Assembly (NCBI GenBank): GCA_017387565.1
Contig: JAFOEY010000011.1
Location: 46,024-110,023 of the forward strand
Length of the DNA: 64,000 bases
Reading direction: 5' to 3'
Source of the DNA: Lachnospiraceae bacterium
GTDB taxonomy: Bacteria; Bacillota; Clostridia; Lachnospirales; Lachnospiraceae
Part shown: positions 55,358 through 63,685 of the stretch, piece by piece
Layout: the number at the start of each line of letters is the position of its first letter
Numbering within the stretch: the stretch's first letter is position 1
The notes under the pieces: generated by a model
What the model was told of the DNA's origin: nothing
Database searches by the model: none
What the model saw: only the letters and a program-made list of their open reading frames with translations
Position numbers and translations under genes: made by a program

Positions 55358-56467
55358 TTACAAATCACTACATACTGTCCGATTTCTTCCTCCCTGCTTT
55401 GCCTGATACATTGCCTTATCCGCTTTTTCAAAGATTTCTTCAGTGCTCATATCCTCACCACTGTATTGGAAAATTCCGGCGCTGATACTGCAATGTCTAT
55501 CCGGCATAAAAGAAAACCTTTCCTGATAAATCATATGGCGAATTCTTTCGATCAGCTCAAACGTTGTTTCCTTTGTATAACCATGTAGAATAACGCCAAA
55601 TTCTTCGCCGCCATAACGAAAAGCCTTAGCTTTTGCAGGACATTGATTCCTTAAGATCTCTGCAATTCTGATTAAGACAAGGTCCCCTTTATCATGACCA
55701 TAGTTATCATTCACTGACTTAAAGAAATCCACATCAATTACTACAACACTAATCATTTTGTCATTGTCGTGACACCATCTGATTTCCTCTTCAAGACAAT
55801 GATAAAACTCAGAATGATTATACAGACCTGTCATAGAATCCATCTTTAAGGCATTGTGCATTCTTTCCTGTGTAAGAGAAGTCTGAAAAATGATATCATT
55901 TTTATCTCTGGTATATGAACATAAAAACTGACAAATATAGTATACAACCAATAATAGCACTAATCCTGCAATTACATTGAACCATCTTTGCGAAGAATTC
56001 CATGAATTATCAAAAATGGGTGCCAGAAATGCCGTAACAATCAACAAAATCGCTGAAGCAATTCCGCTTATCTTCGTCATATTGACATCATCCAGAATAC
56101 AGGAAACCACAATGGGAACAACAAAAGCCGCTGATGAAATCAGAAAATAACTGTGTATTGTAGATATTACAGAACATATAATCAAAAGACTGCATACCAC
56201 CGCATAGTTTTTAACCATTTCAGATTCGGAATGATTTTGAATAAATTGTGCGCAGCCAACACTGATTAAATTAATCGTTGTCGGAGTGATAACATATATA
56301 AAAGCAAACTTTACCGGAGTATACTGAAATGCCCCCGTTAAAATATACATAAACAGAAACATAACCAGTTCTGCCAGAAAAATAATGCAGACAACAACAT
56401 AATAAGATGACAGTATTTTGTTTCGCCAGTAATTTTTTAATTGTAAGTATTCTTCTTGTGCGTTCAT
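55358..56467 (-). CDS. Membrane diguanylate cyclase (GGDEF)
   Basis: A 369-aa protein. Six membrane segments (about residues 22-184) without a large outside domain, a short helix, then a GGDEF domain from about 205. Active motif GGEEF at 286-290, metal site VIDVDFFKSVND at 243-254. The allosteric inhibition site RxxD five residues before GGEEF is absent, so product inhibition through it is unlikely. It makes c-di-GMP from two GTP. Instead of protein feedback, a c-di-GMP-I riboswitch with terminator sits in its leader (56531-56645), offering feedback at the mRNA level. AGAGGA precedes ATG. Confidence 0.93.
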   Translation of the reverse strand: MNAQEEYLQLKNYWRNKILSSYYVVVCIIFLAELVMFLFMYILTGAFQYTPVKFAFIYVITPTTINLISVGCAQFIQNHSESEMVKNYAVVCSLLIICSVISTIHSYFLISSAAFVVPIVVSCILDDVNMTKISGIASAILLIVTAFLAPIFDNSWNSSQRWFNVIAGLVLLLVVYYICQFLCSYTRDKNDIIFQTSLTQERMHNALKMDSMTGLYNHSEFYHCLEEEIRWCHDNDKMISVVVIDVDFFKSVNDNYGHDKGDLVLIRIAEILRNQCPAKAKAFRYGGEEFGVILHGYTKETTFELIERIRHMIYQERFSFMPDRHCSISAGIFQYSGEDMSTEEIFEKADKAMYQAKQGGRNRTVCSDL

Positions 56468-56811: not shown

Positions 56812-59487
56812 TTATTTTTTAAAATAAGACAGACCAAAAGCTCCAAGCCCTACACTGCAGGCCACGGAAAAAGATGCCTTGTTTAGATACAATTGTTCAA
56901 ATGAGACACAACTGTTTATGGTATCTTTTAATTCATTCTGTTCTTTTATACTTAAGTTCACATGGGACGCAAACACAGCCCCCTCATCAATTTTATTCTT
57001 ATGAGATAGAGTATAGCGCACCAGCTGTTTCCTCACCTTTTTCATATCTCCCAGCATCACTCCGGTAATCGTAATCCGGCTCTTTCTCATCTGTAAAACA
57101 GGATGCACACGGAACCATTTACAAAGTTGCATAACAAACTTTCCGGTATAACCATTTTGGTAAAAAATGCCGACAGAAGGTATAATATATCGTGAAACCA
57201 CTCTGCTCTTTTCCCGATTGACCGTTCTGATAATTTCTTCTGTTGTTTTTCCCTGCATCGCAAGTTGGGCGGCATGCAATACCAATATACCTTCCCCACC
57301 ACAAACCTGTCCGGAATCAATAATATGAACATGATCAAAAGATTTTGCAGCCTCTACAGCAGTTCCGTAGCTTTTTCCCGAATTGGACGCTAAGGAAATA
57401 TAAATAATTTCATCTGCTTTGGTTAACTGCTCCGCAAAAAATTCCTCATACTCTTCCACAGATACATTGTCTGCAAAAGCAGTCGTTGCATTATCTGTGA
57501 CATAGTATTCAAGTGCATCTGAGTTAATCTCAATTGTATCTGCAAAACGTCCTTTTTCGGTTCGGATATATAAATACATAACACCAATATCATATTTATC
57601 AATCAAAGCATCCGGTATTTCCGCAACACAATCTGTCGTAATCAACACTTTCTTTTTCCGTTTTGTTAATGATCTGTGAATATTCAATTCTCCATTATCA
57701 ATATCTGTATTTCGATATTCAATCAAATCCTCCGTCAGATAAGATAATAATGTTTTCTCTAATGTTGCAGAATCAATTGGCTTTTCCAGATAAGAATCAA
57801 ATCCCTGATTCAGATAAAACTCTTCCATATCAGAACCGCTATTGGCTGATAATGCAATTACGACACTGTCTTTGCAAAGTCCGTTGGCTTGTTTGCGTAA
57901 TTCTCTTAATGTCTCAACACCATCCATCTCAGGCATCAGATGATCTAACAGGATAATATGGTAAGCCTTTGTTTTGGTAAGCTCGAGACACTCCTTTCCG
58001 CTGTTTGCGCAGTCAATGGAAACCTTGGTTTTTTCCAACAGTTTTTTGATTACCATACAGTTGGTCCGGATATCATCAACCACCAGAATTTTGACTTCAG
58101 GAGCTTCAAATAGCTGCCGGTATTTTCCTTCTGTCTGTGGATTACGGCGCATATTCTGTATCATATCTCCAATGGGTGTTTCATCAATAATCCCCTGCTT
58201 TAAAGAAACCGTGAATACGGAGCCTCTTTTATAAATACTGTCGACCGAAATCGTTCCGCCCATCAGATCTACCAATTGCTTGGTAATATTTAATCCCAGA
58301 CCGCTACCTTCAATTCTTTGATTTTGCTTCTGATCAATTCTCTTAAAAATGCTATAGATATTATCAATATCTTCTTTTTTAATACCAATACCGGTATCAC
58401 GGATTGCAATTTTCAGAATGACTTCATCATCTTCCATTTTTTCTGTGGCAGCATCCATGGTTATGGTTCCGGTTTCCGTATACTTTATGGCATTCGTCAG
58501 AAGATTGAGCATAATCTGCTGAATACGTTTTTTATCACCATGCATCTGGCTTGGAATATTTTCATCAATATGTATCAGAAACTCCAGATTTTTTTCATCA
58601 ATTCTGTTTCTGACCATATCAATAACTTCTTCAAACAACTCGGTTGTCTGATAAGTATTCCTGACAATCGTCATCTTCTGTGTTTCCATCTGGGAAACAT
58701 CCAGAATGTCATTGACGAGACTTAACAGCATCTTTCCTGCATTCTTTACATTTTTAGCATAAGCAAGTGTTTCCTCTTCCCTGCTTTCACGCAAAATCAT
58801 CTCATTTAATCCGATTATGGTATTAATAGGTGAACGAATTTCATGACTCATACTGGCAAAAAAGCTCACCCTTGAATCACTGAGCTGTTCAAGCTCTATT
58901 TTCTGCTGTTCTACCATTTGCTGCTTTTCGGAATAAGTCTGGATGTTAAATTTAATCATAATACCGATAGCAAATCCCGTTGCGATTATAGAAAAAGCCG
59001 AATCAAACATAATAGCTTCTCTACTTGGTAAAGGCATCACAATTTCCGGAATATAATATGCAATCAGATAGCAGCCGGCATCAACTAAAACATCCAGGAT
59101 GATAAATACATTCCTTATTTTTCCCTCAAACATCAGAAATGTATAAATCAGATTGGCACATAACCAGATACTGGCACCACCATAAACGCCACCATTCAGG
59201 AAAAAAATATTTGGAAATATAATTACTAATAAAACCAACCCAAACAAAACACTCGCAAGTTCTACCCTTCGAAATTGAACAGACATTACCAGTGTAATAA
59301 ATGTTATAATCAGCAAAAGAAAAAAGGTTTCTACCATCAGTGGTTCCTTTGAAAATGGAATCGTCTCAAGCAACCCTAAAAAGGCAGAGAACAAAACGAT
59401 TAAACTGATTACACAAAAAAACCGTTCTCTGATGTCACTTCTTCCGCCTAATAAAACTTTACGTAACTCGTTAAAGAAAGCTTTCAT
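56812..59487 (-). CDS. Hybrid histidine kinase-receiver-DegV fusion
   Basis: An 891-aa membrane protein. Six membrane segments (about 22-180) without an outside sensor; coiled linker 185-205; HisKA with H215 in MSHEIRSP; HATPase with N332, DTGIG (364-368) and GSGLGL; receiver domain 465-585 with D471/D472, phospho-acceptor D515 and K569. The last ~280 residues (612-891) are a full DegV/FakB-like domain: ITTDCVAEIPDALIDKYDIG, ISLASNSGKSYGTAVEAA, VHIIDSGQVCGGEGILVLHA. DegV proteins bind fatty acids. No HPt domain. AAAGGAGG lies in the end of the preceding kinase gene, three bases after its stop, so the two are coupled. Confidence 0.92.
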   Translation of the reverse strand: MKAFFNELRKVLLGGRSDIRERFFCVISLIVLFSAFLGLLETIPFSKEPLMVETFFLLLIITFITLVMSVQFRRVELASVLFGLVLLVIIFPNIFFLNGGVYGGASIWLCANLIYTFLMFEGKIRNVFIILDVLVDAGCYLIAYYIPEIVMPLPSREAIMFDSAFSIIATGFAIGIMIKFNIQTYSEKQQMVEQQKIELEQLSDSRVSFFASMSHEIRSPINTIIGLNEMILRESREEETLAYAKNVKNAGKMLLSLVNDILDVSQMETQKMTIVRNTYQTTELFEEVIDMVRNRIDEKNLEFLIHIDENIPSQMHGDKKRIQQIMLNLLTNAIKYTETGTITMDAATEKMEDDEVILKIAIRDTGIGIKKEDIDNIYSIFKRIDQKQNQRIEGSGLGLNITKQLVDLMGGTISVDSIYKRGSVFTVSLKQGIIDETPIGDMIQNMRRNPQTEGKYRQLFEAPEVKILVVDDIRTNCMVIKKLLEKTKVSIDCANSGKECLELTKTKAYHIILLDHLMPEMDGVETLRELRKQANGLCKDSVVIALSANSGSDMEEFYLNQGFDSYLEKPIDSATLEKTLLSYLTEDLIEYRNTDIDNGELNIHRSLTKRKKKVLITTDCVAEIPDALIDKYDIGVMYLYIRTEKGRFADTIEINSDALEYYVTDNATTAFADNVSVEEYEEFFAEQLTKADEIIYISLASNSGKSYGTAVEAAKSFDHVHIIDSGQVCGGEGILVLHAAQLAMQGKTTEEIIRTVNREKSRVVSRYIIPSVGIFYQNGYTGKFVMQLCKWFRVHPVLQMRKSRITITGVMLGDMKKVRKQLVRYTLSHKNKIDEGAVFASHVNLSIKEQNELKDTINSCVSFEQLYLNKASFSVACSVGLGAFGLSYFKK

Positions 59488-59490
59488 AAG

Positions 59491-62237
59491 TTAATTGCCT
59501 CCTTTCAGGTCATTACGTAATACTTCCAAATCAGAACCTGCCGCAAAATAGTCATCCTGATTAATCTTTCTGCGAATTTTGTCCAACTCACTTTTTTTCG
59601 TATCTTTACCAATTTTATACCGGCTAAGTTCATCAACAATTGCAAGCATTTCGTCTTTTCTCAGACTATACATCGCATCTTCAAATTTTGCATATAAAGC
59701 ATCAAAGTTTTCCATCGTCAAGGACATTTTTTCCGAAGCATCCGTTGATTCGCTAACTGCCACAACATCACCTGAATCATTTGCCAGAATTATATTCACG
59801 CGTTCCTGTTTTTTAAGCTGTTCCATCAAGCTTTCATATTCGCTAAGAACACTGTCATGATTTTTTAGGATAATATCAAATCGTCCCTCTTTTCCGGCAA
59901 ACTCCAGTTCCCTTGCACGATCAGATAAATGCATGGCGCCGATACTCTTCATGGTACTCTTCAACGCATGAATCTTAATAATATAATTTTCCCAATCTTT
60001 ATTTTGAAACAGCTCAGACAATAATGCAGCATTTTCTTCATAATTCAGGACACATTCTGCCAAAATCATATAGAATCCTTCTTCGCCGCCACAATATAGC
60101 ATTCCTGTTTCTTTATCGATATCTGTAAGTTCAAGGCTATCTGTTGTTTCCTGCTGTTTCATAGTATCCTCAGCATCTTCAAATATCATTTTTTCCGGAG
60201 GAAGGGTCCTTCTTAATACTCTCTCAAGTACTGATAATTCAACCGGCTTTTCCAAAAAATCAGAAAAACCTTCTGATAAAAACAACTTACGGCTTCCCGC
60301 AACTGCATTGGCAGTCAGTGCAATAATCGGCACACGCTGGTAATAGCTTCCGACTTTTTCACGAATTCGATGTGTAGTTTCCACACCATCCATATCCGGC
60401 ATCATATGGTCCATAAAAATAAAATCAAAATCCATACTTTCCACTTTTTCCAATGCTTCCGACCCGCTTAATGCTTTCGTCACACTGATTTTAAATTGGG
60501 AAAGAATATTTTCGATGACACGGATATTCATAACATTGTCATCGACAACCAGTACATGTGCACTGGGAGCGCTAAAGCGCTTACTCTTAATCGGCTTTTC
60601 AGCATGTTCACTGTCATATTCCTCATTCAAGGCCGCTACAACGGACAAAGAATATACCGGTCGGTACATAAGCAGTGCATTTTCGTATTTCCGGTCTATC
60701 TTTGCATTTCTCGGAACCGAAATCATAAGTTTTGTCCGTAGGGCTATTGCATCAAAATACTTCGGATCTTCCTCATATTCAACGTCCGTAATAAAAACGT
60801 GAGTATAGCGTTTTCCTTTCATACGCCTTTTCATCTCATCCAGATTTTTACATAATTGCCAGGAAACCGGAATGTTCTTTACCATGTTTTCAATTTGCGC
60901 GGTAAAAGCATCGCGTGACCCCGGTCTTGCCTGACGTTCAACATTAAAATAACATGCAATGCTGATTTCTTCCGGATTATTCAATACCGCAACGGGTTGA
61001 TCTTTTACAATTTTTTGTGGAACAACAAAGGTAAATACACTTCCCTTACCTTCCTTACTGTTAACAGTAATGACACCACCTAATTTTTTGGCAAGCAGAT
61101 TACTGATTGCCAATCCAAGACCAACACCGCCTTCCTGACGGTTGCGACGGGTATCCAGCTGTCCAAAACCGGTAAACAGATTCTCCATGTAGTTCTCACG
61201 CATTCCAATTCCGGTATCCGTAATGGAAACAGACAGATTAATTCCATAACTCTCTCTTCTTCCGCTGACTTTAATTCCAATATAACCGGAATGGGTAAAT
61301 TTAACTGCATTACTGACCATATTCATGATAATACGGCGTATTTTCTTTTCATCACCTTCTAACAATGCCGGAATAGATGTGTCAAAATCTACAACAACAT
61401 CCAGATCTTTTTCGGCAACCGCGGCCATTGTCATATTAATAACATCGTTAATCGTGGAAGAAATATTATATACTTCTTCTTCCAAATCCATTTCACCGGC
61501 CTGAAGCTCTGAAAAATCCAGAATATCATTTACCATTGACATTAATTTTTTACTTGCCACCTGAATGTTATAAATTTCTTCTTTTATGACATTCAGGTCT
61601 GTCTGTTTTTGTGCCATTTCACTCATGCCGTAGATAGTGTTTAAAGGAGTGCGTATTTCATGACTGATATTCGCCAAAAATCATCCTTGATGCGCTCTGC
61701 CTTTGTCATATCCTGAATGATCTGCATGGATTTTGCCGCACTTTCATTTCTCTGCCTTACCCATACCTGTAATAAAATAATATAAATAAGTATATTTGCA
61801 ATCTGTGGCAGAGCCTGATGAAAATCACCCATCATCATGTTCTGCTTTCCTTCCACAATGAAAATAACAAGCAACAATATCTGGGTAATATTGACAATAA
61901 CAACCAGATCGGTTATCGCATACATAGAAATTACGGAACCGATAATAAAAAACGGTGGAATGATATCAACATAATTGTCAGAATACAGGGCATAGAGAAA
62001 AAAACATAACTGTATAAGCAGAGTTGTAAACAATGCCCGCATAGAATATGTTTTATATCGCATGATAAACAAAGCCCATGCCGTTGCAAGACTAAACCCG
62101 ATAATTACAATAATCCAGGCATCCCACTTTTTGGTAATCCCCACGTAACCCATCATGATCCCGTAGATGGTAAAGAAAATCAGAACAAATTTTTCAATTT
62201 TTCTTTCCTGCTTTTCAGTTGCAATATAATGCTCCAA
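59491..62237 (-). pseudogene. Hybrid histidine kinase with HPt domain, interrupted by a frameshift
   Basis: Two frames make one kinase. 62237-61680 encodes the start (TTG at 62237 after GAGGGG), six membrane segments and the linker up to ERIKDDF. 61677-59491 continues with LANISHEIRTPLNTIYGM (HisKA), HATPase (DTGIGM, GVGLGL), a degenerate receiver-like stretch (about 237-340), a true receiver (VLVVDDN, MDHMMPDMDG, LEKPVE) and an HPt domain (IHALKSTMKSIGA). At 61676-61680 the run of five A (plus strand) breaks the frame; six would restore FLANISHE. Mutation, slippage or sequence error are possible. Confidence 0.88.
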
Positions 62238-62262
62238 ATTAAAACCCCTCAATTGAATTAAT

Positions 62263-62331: not shown

Positions 62332-63685
62332 TTAATATTTTCCAAATCCTTCACCGAGCGAAATAATCTGCTCATTCCGATGAGATGTTGAAGAATAATT
62401 TGTTTTACTGTATCCGCTTTGGGATGTTCTATTGCTTCCATCCAACTGATATACGGAAAGCAAGTCTCTCATACGCTTTGCCTGTCCGGACAGCTCCAGA
62501 CTTGCTGCTGCACACTCTTCACTCGTTGCAGAATTGTTGGATACTACCTGGGATACCTGCGATACAGCCTGATCAATCTGCTCGATTGCGGTAGCCTGAT
62601 AATTGGATGCCTCTGCAATTCCATTGATGATGTTTTCACTCTCCGAAACCACGGTTGAAATCTCTTCGATGGATTTCATCGTATCATCTGCGATGGTAGT
62701 GCCCATATGTATCTTTTTAATTGAATCTTCAATCATCTCGGCGGTTTCTGCCGCTGCTGCAGAACTCTTTGCTGCCAGATTGCGGACTTCCTCAGCAACT
62801 ACGGCAAATCCCATTCCGGCATCACCGGCTCTTGCTGCTTCCACTGCTGCATTTAATGCTAAAATATTGGTCTGGAATGCAATATCATCGATGACTTTGA
62901 TAATCTTTGAAATATTTTCAGATGAAACATTGATTTCATTCATGGCTGAAACCATTTCTTCCATTTGTTCATTTCCTTTTTTCATGCTTATGATTGCTTT
63001 GGAAACAAGATCTGCAGCTTCATCCGCTTTTTTTGCATTATTTTTTGTTTTTTCTGCAATATCATCAATGGAAGCGGTAATCTGTTCAATGGCACTTGCC
63101 TGTTCGGTAGATCCTTGTGCCAATGCTTCGCTGGCAGATGCAACTTCACCGGCTGAAATCTCTACCTGTACGGCACCTTCCCGAATCTGAAGAAGAGAAT
63201 CTTTGTTACGTTCAACCAGTTGTTTTAATGAATTTCCCAAGAGGTCTCTGTCACTTTTCGGTTTCACATCAACCATCAGATTTCCGTCAGCCACTTCTTC
63301 CATAATGGCAGCTTCTTCTTTAATTATTATGAATCAATCGATTAAATTCATCAATGACAATACCAAACTCATCATTATTTATCTTATCCAGCTTTTCAGT
63401 AGCGCTTCCGTTGGCAAGATCTTTGCTGGCAGACGCAATCATAGCCAGATTAACGCGTACCGAACGCAGTACAAAAGTAACAATTGCCGTCATAAATATG
63501 ACTACTAAAACCATTTCAAACAATATAAACCCTGTGCACACTTTACTAAATGCAACTGCCTCTGAGCCATCCAGCCCGGCCGCATGTGAAATGGAATACA
63601 TTGCACCGCCCAGCATAGCTATAATTGCAACATCAATAGCCAAAAAACAAGCCATCAGTTTTTTACGAAATGAAATATCTTTCAT
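62332..63685 (-). pseudogene. Methyl-accepting chemotaxis protein, interrupted by a frameshift
   Basis: 63685-63320 encodes two membrane segments with only a ~20-residue outside loop and the start of HAMP, ending in a stop after FNRLIHNN. The frame resumes as [16 protein letters not shown] from about 63318 and covers the rest of HAMP and the signalling domain, with the hairpin tip [22 protein letters not shown]-type sequence intact ([12 protein letters not shown]). Removing one A near 63322-63328 restores the frame. AAGGAGG precedes ATG. The receptor lacks a sensor domain, so it would sense in or at the membrane. Two open halves, no complete product. Confidence 0.85.

Follow-up and report, generated by a model that had tools for sequence, protein, structure and literature searches.

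The kinase-DegV locus

The window, a stretch of 64,000 nucleotides from a Lachnospiraceae bacterium (contig JAFOEY010000011.1, positions 46,024 to 110,023), carries on its minus strand a gene for a hybrid histidine kinase that continues into a complete DegV domain, here called HK2-DegV. A second hybrid kinase, HK1, is encoded immediately upstream, and a methyl-accepting chemotaxis protein (MCP) adjoins HK1. Residue numbers below are those of HK2-DegV unless another protein is named.

56812..59487, minus strand: HK2-DegV, hybrid histidine kinase with DegV domain, 891 aa, one open frame with an ATG start
58948..59433, minus strand: six predicted membrane helices (residues 19-180), extracytoplasmic domain absent (hydropathy and AlphaFold2)
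58681..58872, minus strand: HisKA, residues 206-269, phospho-acceptor His215 (Pfam PF00512, 54.9 bits)
58195..58539, minus strand: HATPase_c, residues 317-431 (Pfam PF02518, 88.5 bits)
57751..58089, minus strand: receiver domain with Asp515 and Lys569, Response_reg at residues 467-579 (Pfam PF00072, 81.2 bits)
56815..57651, minus strand: complete DegV domain, residues 613-891 (Pfam PF02645)
59491..61677, minus strand: main part of HK1, HisKA-HATPase-receiver with a weak Hpt match, 728 aa, ending 3 nt before the HK2 start (Pfam)
61641..62252, minus strand: membrane part of HK1 in another frame, 85.0% identical to residues 1-187 of the HK1 of locus L009
62332..63303, minus strand: signalling part of an MCP, upstream of HK1 (Pfam MCPsignal)

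An earlier note on this DNA had the position, strand, and length of the fusion gene right, and its description of the HisKA, HATPase, and receiver motifs as intact is borne out by the Pfam matches and by an alignment of 81 members. Of the 13 kinase and receiver positions scored in that alignment, 11 are invariant, with H215, N332, G366, G394, G396, D471, D472, D515, and K569 each found in 81/81; D364 occurs in 80, and position 547 is occupied by Thr (73 members) or Ser (8). With its HisKA histidine, ATP-binding motifs, and receiver Asp and Lys, HK2 is a hybrid histidine kinase. The remaining 280 or so residues constitute a whole DegV domain, as the note had also proposed. They cover profile positions 1-280 of 280 in PF02645 (117.3 bits against a cut-off of 27) and exceed the cut-off of the NCBIfam DegV model TIGR00762 as well (122.6 against 99.7). 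The fold anticipated for this region is retained in the predicted structure, which aligns by VIA-align over 254-277 residues to 29 listed DegV/FakB entries; the tunnel-less C-terminal domain of FakA (6w6b) aligns over 215 residues, from a chain only 233 long. Full-length profile and fold together place the domain in the DegV family. Among its structural relatives are Staphylococcus aureus FakB1 (5uto) and FakB2 (4x9x), which resemble it in the whole fold at 20% identity over 274 and 264 residues, respectively.

The AlphaFold2 model of full-length HK2 (mean pLDDT 85.4, pTM 0.49) agrees with a rough hydropathy scan in the membrane part and has the last predicted membrane helix continuous with the kinase dimerization helix. 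An extracytoplasmic domain is predicted to have no room in this arrangement, which fits the earlier proposal that HK2 lacks an outside sensor. The linker that precedes the DegV domain (residues 598-609) is modeled at low confidence, and the placement of the domain relative to the kinase is not fixed by the full-length model.

Distribution of the fusion

A profile scan of contigs gave at least 595 pattern matches, at least 580 of them confirmed relatives, and the best 80 of these loci, therefore selected for similarity, were kept. All 80 share the domain order of HK2-DegV (871-975 aa, median 899), and they include Schaedlerella arabinosiphila DSM 106076 (L030) and Acetatifactor muris DSM 23669 (L060), strains identified by record title. 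Because every kept locus carries the fusion, it is not an assembly artefact, and misassembly, the explanation that the earlier note had proposed to check by a search for homologues with the same order, is ruled out. Record titles are mostly Lachnospiraceae, with Oscillospiraceae or its genera, Eubacteriaceae, and one Treponema MAG also represented; some of these may be misnamed.

Less selected figures come from an even draw of 299 genomes of the window's family. Among the matches listed, a hand count of open frames gives at least 59 of 700 aa or more in at least 46 genomes. Pfam was run on six of these frames (L116, L121, L124, L125, L126, and L128), and L126 has DegV and HATPase only. At E <= 1e-20 the domain profile matches 288 of the same 299 genomes, mostly with lower scores and in frames as long as an ordinary DegV protein. 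Across the class, a draw of 391 genomes contains 24 with a match at E <= 1e-60, and nine of these have frames of at least 700 aa; six of the nine belong to the window's family and three to one genus of one other family. By frame length alone, those three genomes also have an 850-863-aa frame directly upstream of the long frame.

A conserved two-kinase cassette

The HK2-DegV gene is half of a conserved two-kinase cassette, a feature absent from the earlier note. An HK1-cluster hybrid kinase lies upstream on the same strand in 77 of the best 80 loci, at a median gap of 3 nt by first start codon and with a 4-nt overlap in 15 of the 77. The three loci that lack an HK1 assignment comprise two contig edges (L031, L074) and one locus with HK1 in split frames (L081). 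Five further sequences (from L121, L122, L131, L132, and L139) bring the HK1-type rows to 82. The receiver Asp is found in all of them and the Hpt His in 79, the exceptions being the short HK1 of L021 and two rows from the long variants described below. In the N-box, the second Asn is present in 82/82 rows and the first in only 17/82. By Pfam, the Hpt match of HK1 passes the cut-off in L010 and L030 but falls short of it in L009.

The copy in the window is split. In L009, the window's nearest kin, HK1 is intact at 921 aa, and the main part of the window's copy matches its residues 187-921 at 89.7% identity. Inspection of the sequence puts the break in frame near 61677, where five T stand in a row. 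The Hpt match reaches 20.6 bits, under the Pfam cut-off of 24.6. The MCP, 98.5% identical to residues 122-450 of its L009 counterpart, is also divided; the splits in HK1 (61621-61740) and MCP (63271-63390) each run over two frames, and both genes are intact in L009. Either sequencing error or real decay may account for these breaks, and, with HK1 split, the assembled form of this strain may lack a working relay.

Candidate outputs are encoded on the upstream side of the cassette. Within 60 nt of HK1, BLAST assigns a lone receiver in 47 of 77 loci and a REC-HD-GYP protein in 12, with Pfam checks of the former on L023 and of the latter on L010, L028, and L037. Six loci (L009 and L016-L020) instead have the order CheA-CheW-MCP-HK1-HK2, assigned by cluster with Pfam on one representative of each. 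In the window the MCP adjoins HK1 and the contig ends at the window's end; CheA and CheW upstream of this MCP were not found in the assembly, where CheW hits elsewhere do not match the L009 DNA.

The putative ligand site of the DegV domain

In S. aureus FakB1, the fatty-acid carboxylate is held by a Thr62-Ser95-His270 network (PMC8892158); Arg205 is described as acting in FakA and membrane binding, and Arg173 as needed for phosphorylation by FakA (PMC8892158, PMC9136124). None of these carrier residues is found in the window's domain. The network positions are occupied by Ala672, Gly704, and Ser878, a replacement of all three FakB residues, and Tyr780 stands at the position of Arg173.

Family-wide substitutions were counted over 118 fusion rows, a set in which L130, encoded in two overlapping frames, is taken as fused and from which the duplicates L106 and L110, the DAK2-DegV protein L129, three unfused rows, and seven sister rows are excluded. 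The commonest residues at positions 62, 95, and 270 are Ser (93 rows), Ser (90), and Asn (114), with Ser in the window, Thr in L045, His in L105, and Leu in L128 as the exceptions to Asn270. His270 is found in 7/7 sister stand-alone DegVs and 9/11 canonical DegVs. Arg173 is kept in 62/118 fusion rows against 11/11 canonical rows, and Lys188 is replaced by His in 109/118. The position of Arg205 is Gly in 116/118 fusion rows and Arg in 10/11 canonical rows; depending on the alignment, the Gly of the fusions falls at Arg205 or one residue later, and the Arg is lost in both registers, being absent, neighboring register included, in 117/118. When L148-L150 were added later to give 121 fused rows, Asn270 was found in 117 of them, and ten more DegV columns were held at 85% or above with an identity rare in other DegVs. 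A very divergent HK-REC-DegV frame (L128:4001-6709) has most of its DegV site residues unlike both FakB and the main fusion family.

By these alignments, the DegV fold is systematically changed at the residues for holding fatty acid and for working with FakA. With the carboxylate network remodeled across the family and none of its three residues left in the window, the ligand should not be presumed to be free fatty acid. The earlier note had proposed that the kinase reads the fatty-acid or lipid state of the cell; a lipid-like ligand in the cell or at the membrane is still the best reading, but the note's description of the domain as fatty-acid-binding does not hold as it stands, given the Ala/Gly/Ser network of the window. 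Most members combine the exchange of His for Asn with Ser62 and Ser95, which would be compatible with an altered head group. Asn270 also occurs outside the fusions, however, in own_L006, L129, and one or two canonical rows depending on alignment, and it is therefore not necessarily the sign of a new ligand. The window's subgroup comprises 17 rows, hand-picked by their place in the tree and by identity to the window. In it the network is replaced by Ala (14 rows), Gly (16), and Asn (16), a site so altered that it may take a quite different ligand or none. Mean entropy near the former carboxylate is 1.49 bits, compared with 1.77 elsewhere (permutation 0.03, at sites chosen after viewing the alignments).

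Variants of the fusion and a probable recruitment series

Four long forms (L121-L124, 1138-1152 aa) have the order HK-REC-DegV followed by Hpt, as seen by Pfam in L121 and L124 and by motif in all four tails. Their upstream kinases have no Hpt motif in 4/4 cases, and Pfam on L121 and L122 agrees. Hpt is thus moved, not lost, in these variants, and because Hpt sits on HK2 where the upstream kinase has none, DegV is not a simple stand-in for it; the idea of DegV as a general Hpt substitute is ruled out by the HK-REC-DegV-Hpt forms. Among the matches listed, frames that reach 1100 aa number at least ten and come from at least 9 of the 299 genomes of the window's family.

At the other end of the range, three stand-alone DegVs (L131, L132, L139) directly follow an HK-REC-Hpt gene, with Hpt over the Pfam cut-off in all three kinases, and carry fusion-type residues at 188, 205, and 270. 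Degenerate fusions exist as well: L126 and L127 have decayed H-box and receiver motifs, intact ATP-site residues, and most of the DegV residues. Separately, a 594-aa frame (L129:3083-4864) combines Dak2, the FakA middle domain, and a full DegV over cut-off in a FakA-FakB-like fusion.

A tree of 87 rows, including 28 of the 80 contig loci and the window, places fused and unfused members in one group (support 100/99). The three unfused DegVs branch below a group (100/100) of 65 fused rows plus L130, although the step that separates L139 is weaker (89/74), and the next group out is a stand-alone DegV subfamily (94/97). Because the tree is rooted at its midpoint, the branching order is likely but not proven.

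Role of the DegV domain

The most likely role of the DegV domain is to regulate the two-kinase phosphorelay as the receptor of a hydrophobic ligand, a reading to which a probability of roughly one half is assigned. A FakB-fold carrier domain would have been recruited to bind an intracellular or membrane-derived molecule, most likely an acyl lipid or something similar and not plain free fatty acid. Occupancy of the DegV pocket would alter the activity of HK2 and, via HK2, that of HK1. Phosphate from the receiver of either kinase would then pass to Hpt, on HK1 in most members and on HK2 in the long variants, and from there to a separate output, the lone receiver or REC-HD-GYP protein encoded just upstream, in place of which the window's subgroup would use the CheA-CheW-MCP set in six loci. 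Conservation of the kinase and receiver residues and of the HK1 cassette is consistent with this scheme, as is retention of the fold through changes at His270, Lys188, and Arg205 in nearly all fusion rows. The receptor reading is further favored by L126 and L127, which keep most DegV residues despite their decayed H-box and receiver, by the fusion-type residues of the unfused DegVs that follow HK-REC-Hpt genes, and by the precedent of fatty-acid control of the hybrid kinase RpfC. Against it, loss of the network in the window's subgroup would also fit a ligand-free domain, the former carboxylate sites are only slightly more conserved than the rest, Asn270 is shared with one or two canonical rows, and output domains usually stand where DegV does, behind the receiver. 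The window's split HK1 with its sub-threshold Hpt match, the seldom-kept first N-box Asn, and the unplaced DegV domain in the full-length model also weigh on this side.

A more specific version of the receptor reading is put forward tentatively. The FakB fold may have been converted stepwise, from stand-alone protein to operon neighbor, fusion, and fusion with Hpt, into a dedicated receptor for something other than free fatty acid, for instance an acyl-phosphate, some neutral lipid, or an amphiphile of host or dietary origin. In a widespread gut-bacterial family it would control a two-kinase phosphorelay with interchangeable outputs (receiver, HD-GYP, or chemosensory array).

The reverse direction of control, in which the HK2 receiver governs the binding or release of fatty acid or lipid by the DegV domain and thereby the supply of lipid, would account for the place of DegV directly after the receiver on a flexible-looking linker. 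The genome encodes one FakA-type kinase (TIGR03599, 631 bits) and seven stand-alone DegV proteins, and a Fak pathway therefore probably exists. Loss of Arg205, however, argues against a carrier for FakA, and Arg173 survives in little more than half of the fusion rows and is Tyr in the window; control of lipid delivery by the receiver, as the earlier note had put it, does not hold in that form. Hpt follows DegV in the long variants, which adds a further step beyond DegV, and unfused relatives have a DegV without an attached receiver. On balance this direction of control is unlikely.

Similarly doubtful is a DegV domain that has lost ligand binding and serves for docking or dimerization, joining HK2 to HK1. 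Such a module could tolerate the loss of the whole carboxylate network seen in the window's subgroup and would explain the near-constant pairing with HK1, which extends to the three unfused DegVs. It sits poorly with the family-wide hold on Asn270 and ten further columns, and with a fold that matches DegV/FakB entries over a greater length than the tunnel-less FakA domain. That the domain is still a canonical FakB feeding FakA, merely tethered to the membrane by a chance fusion, is very improbable: Pfam and fold do assign it to the DegV/FakB family, but the defining FakB residues are replaced family-wide and the fusion recurs over many genera in a signalling cassette.

The receptor reading, if true, would constitute a direct physical link from a lipid-carrier fold to phosphorelay signalling in Lachnospiraceae, a major gut family, and the comparisons made here suggest that a carrier fold has been turned into a built-in sensor in gut bacteria. 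The unfused, fused, and extended forms are natural comparisons for how a metabolic carrier becomes a sensor. Because some loci are named for cultured strains, as with L030 and L060, a search for the ligand is feasible now.

Relation to known systems

HK2-DegV bears some resemblance to several characterized systems. The FakB proteins share its fold, but here the DegV domain is fused to a hybrid kinase, with His270 and Arg205 replaced nearly throughout and Arg173, Thr62, and Ser95 in part. RpfC is a hybrid histidine kinase that is bound and activated by a fatty acid, DSF (PMC5391125). In contrast to RpfC, HK2 has its candidate receptor at the C-terminus, in a FakB-fold domain, and shares the relay with a second kinase. 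RpfC is not known to have a DegV domain. In S. aureus, the Fak pathway and the pool of free fatty acids affect the SaeRS two-component system (PMC5539427); Fak and Sae components are distinct proteins there, whereas in HK2 the FakB-type domain is part of the kinase. The co-activator DhaQ (2iu4) has a related DhaK fold but is not known to lie within a histidine kinase. Hybrid kinases of the HK-REC-Hpt type are like HK2 in kinase, receiver, and relay logic, although the best NCBIfam matches, BarA and TorS, fall far under their cut-offs and Hpt is here found on the partner kinase or after DegV. DhaQ, for its part, acts with a transcription factor.

Streptococcus pyogenes FakB4 has been suggested to function outside exogenous fatty-acid incorporation (PMC10138225), and DegV genes are reported beside hemolysin III genes in an account whose relevant passages do not mention a kinase fusion (PMC3146951). 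No account of a histidine kinase-DegV fusion was found among the papers listed by searches of open-licence literature. A hybrid kinase with an added domain is known as a kind; within the reach of these searches, no description turned up of DegV as the added domain, of the two-kinase cassette and its conservation, or of the recruitment that can be traced here.

Genes downstream of the fusion

A membrane GGDEF protein is encoded in the window at 55358-56467, on the same strand and 344 nt past the fusion gene. A GGDEF motif scan over the 80 loci returned one ORF and is too strict, because it missed the Pfam-positive GGDEF protein of L033, whose cluster is present in five loci. GGDEF genes also lie 3' of L121, L126, and L131. 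Together with the REC-HD-GYP proteins upstream of HK1, these genes make a link of the family as a whole to c-di-GMP possible. Behind the decayed fusions at L126:2252-4837 and L127:2228-4837 lies in each case a frame of 459 aa, identified by Pfam in L126 as a Cache-GGDEF protein. By cluster, an extracellular solute-binding protein (SBP_bac_3) is encoded 3' of the fusion in 9 of the 80 loci, with Pfam tests at L040:9864-10664 and L074:3477-4307.
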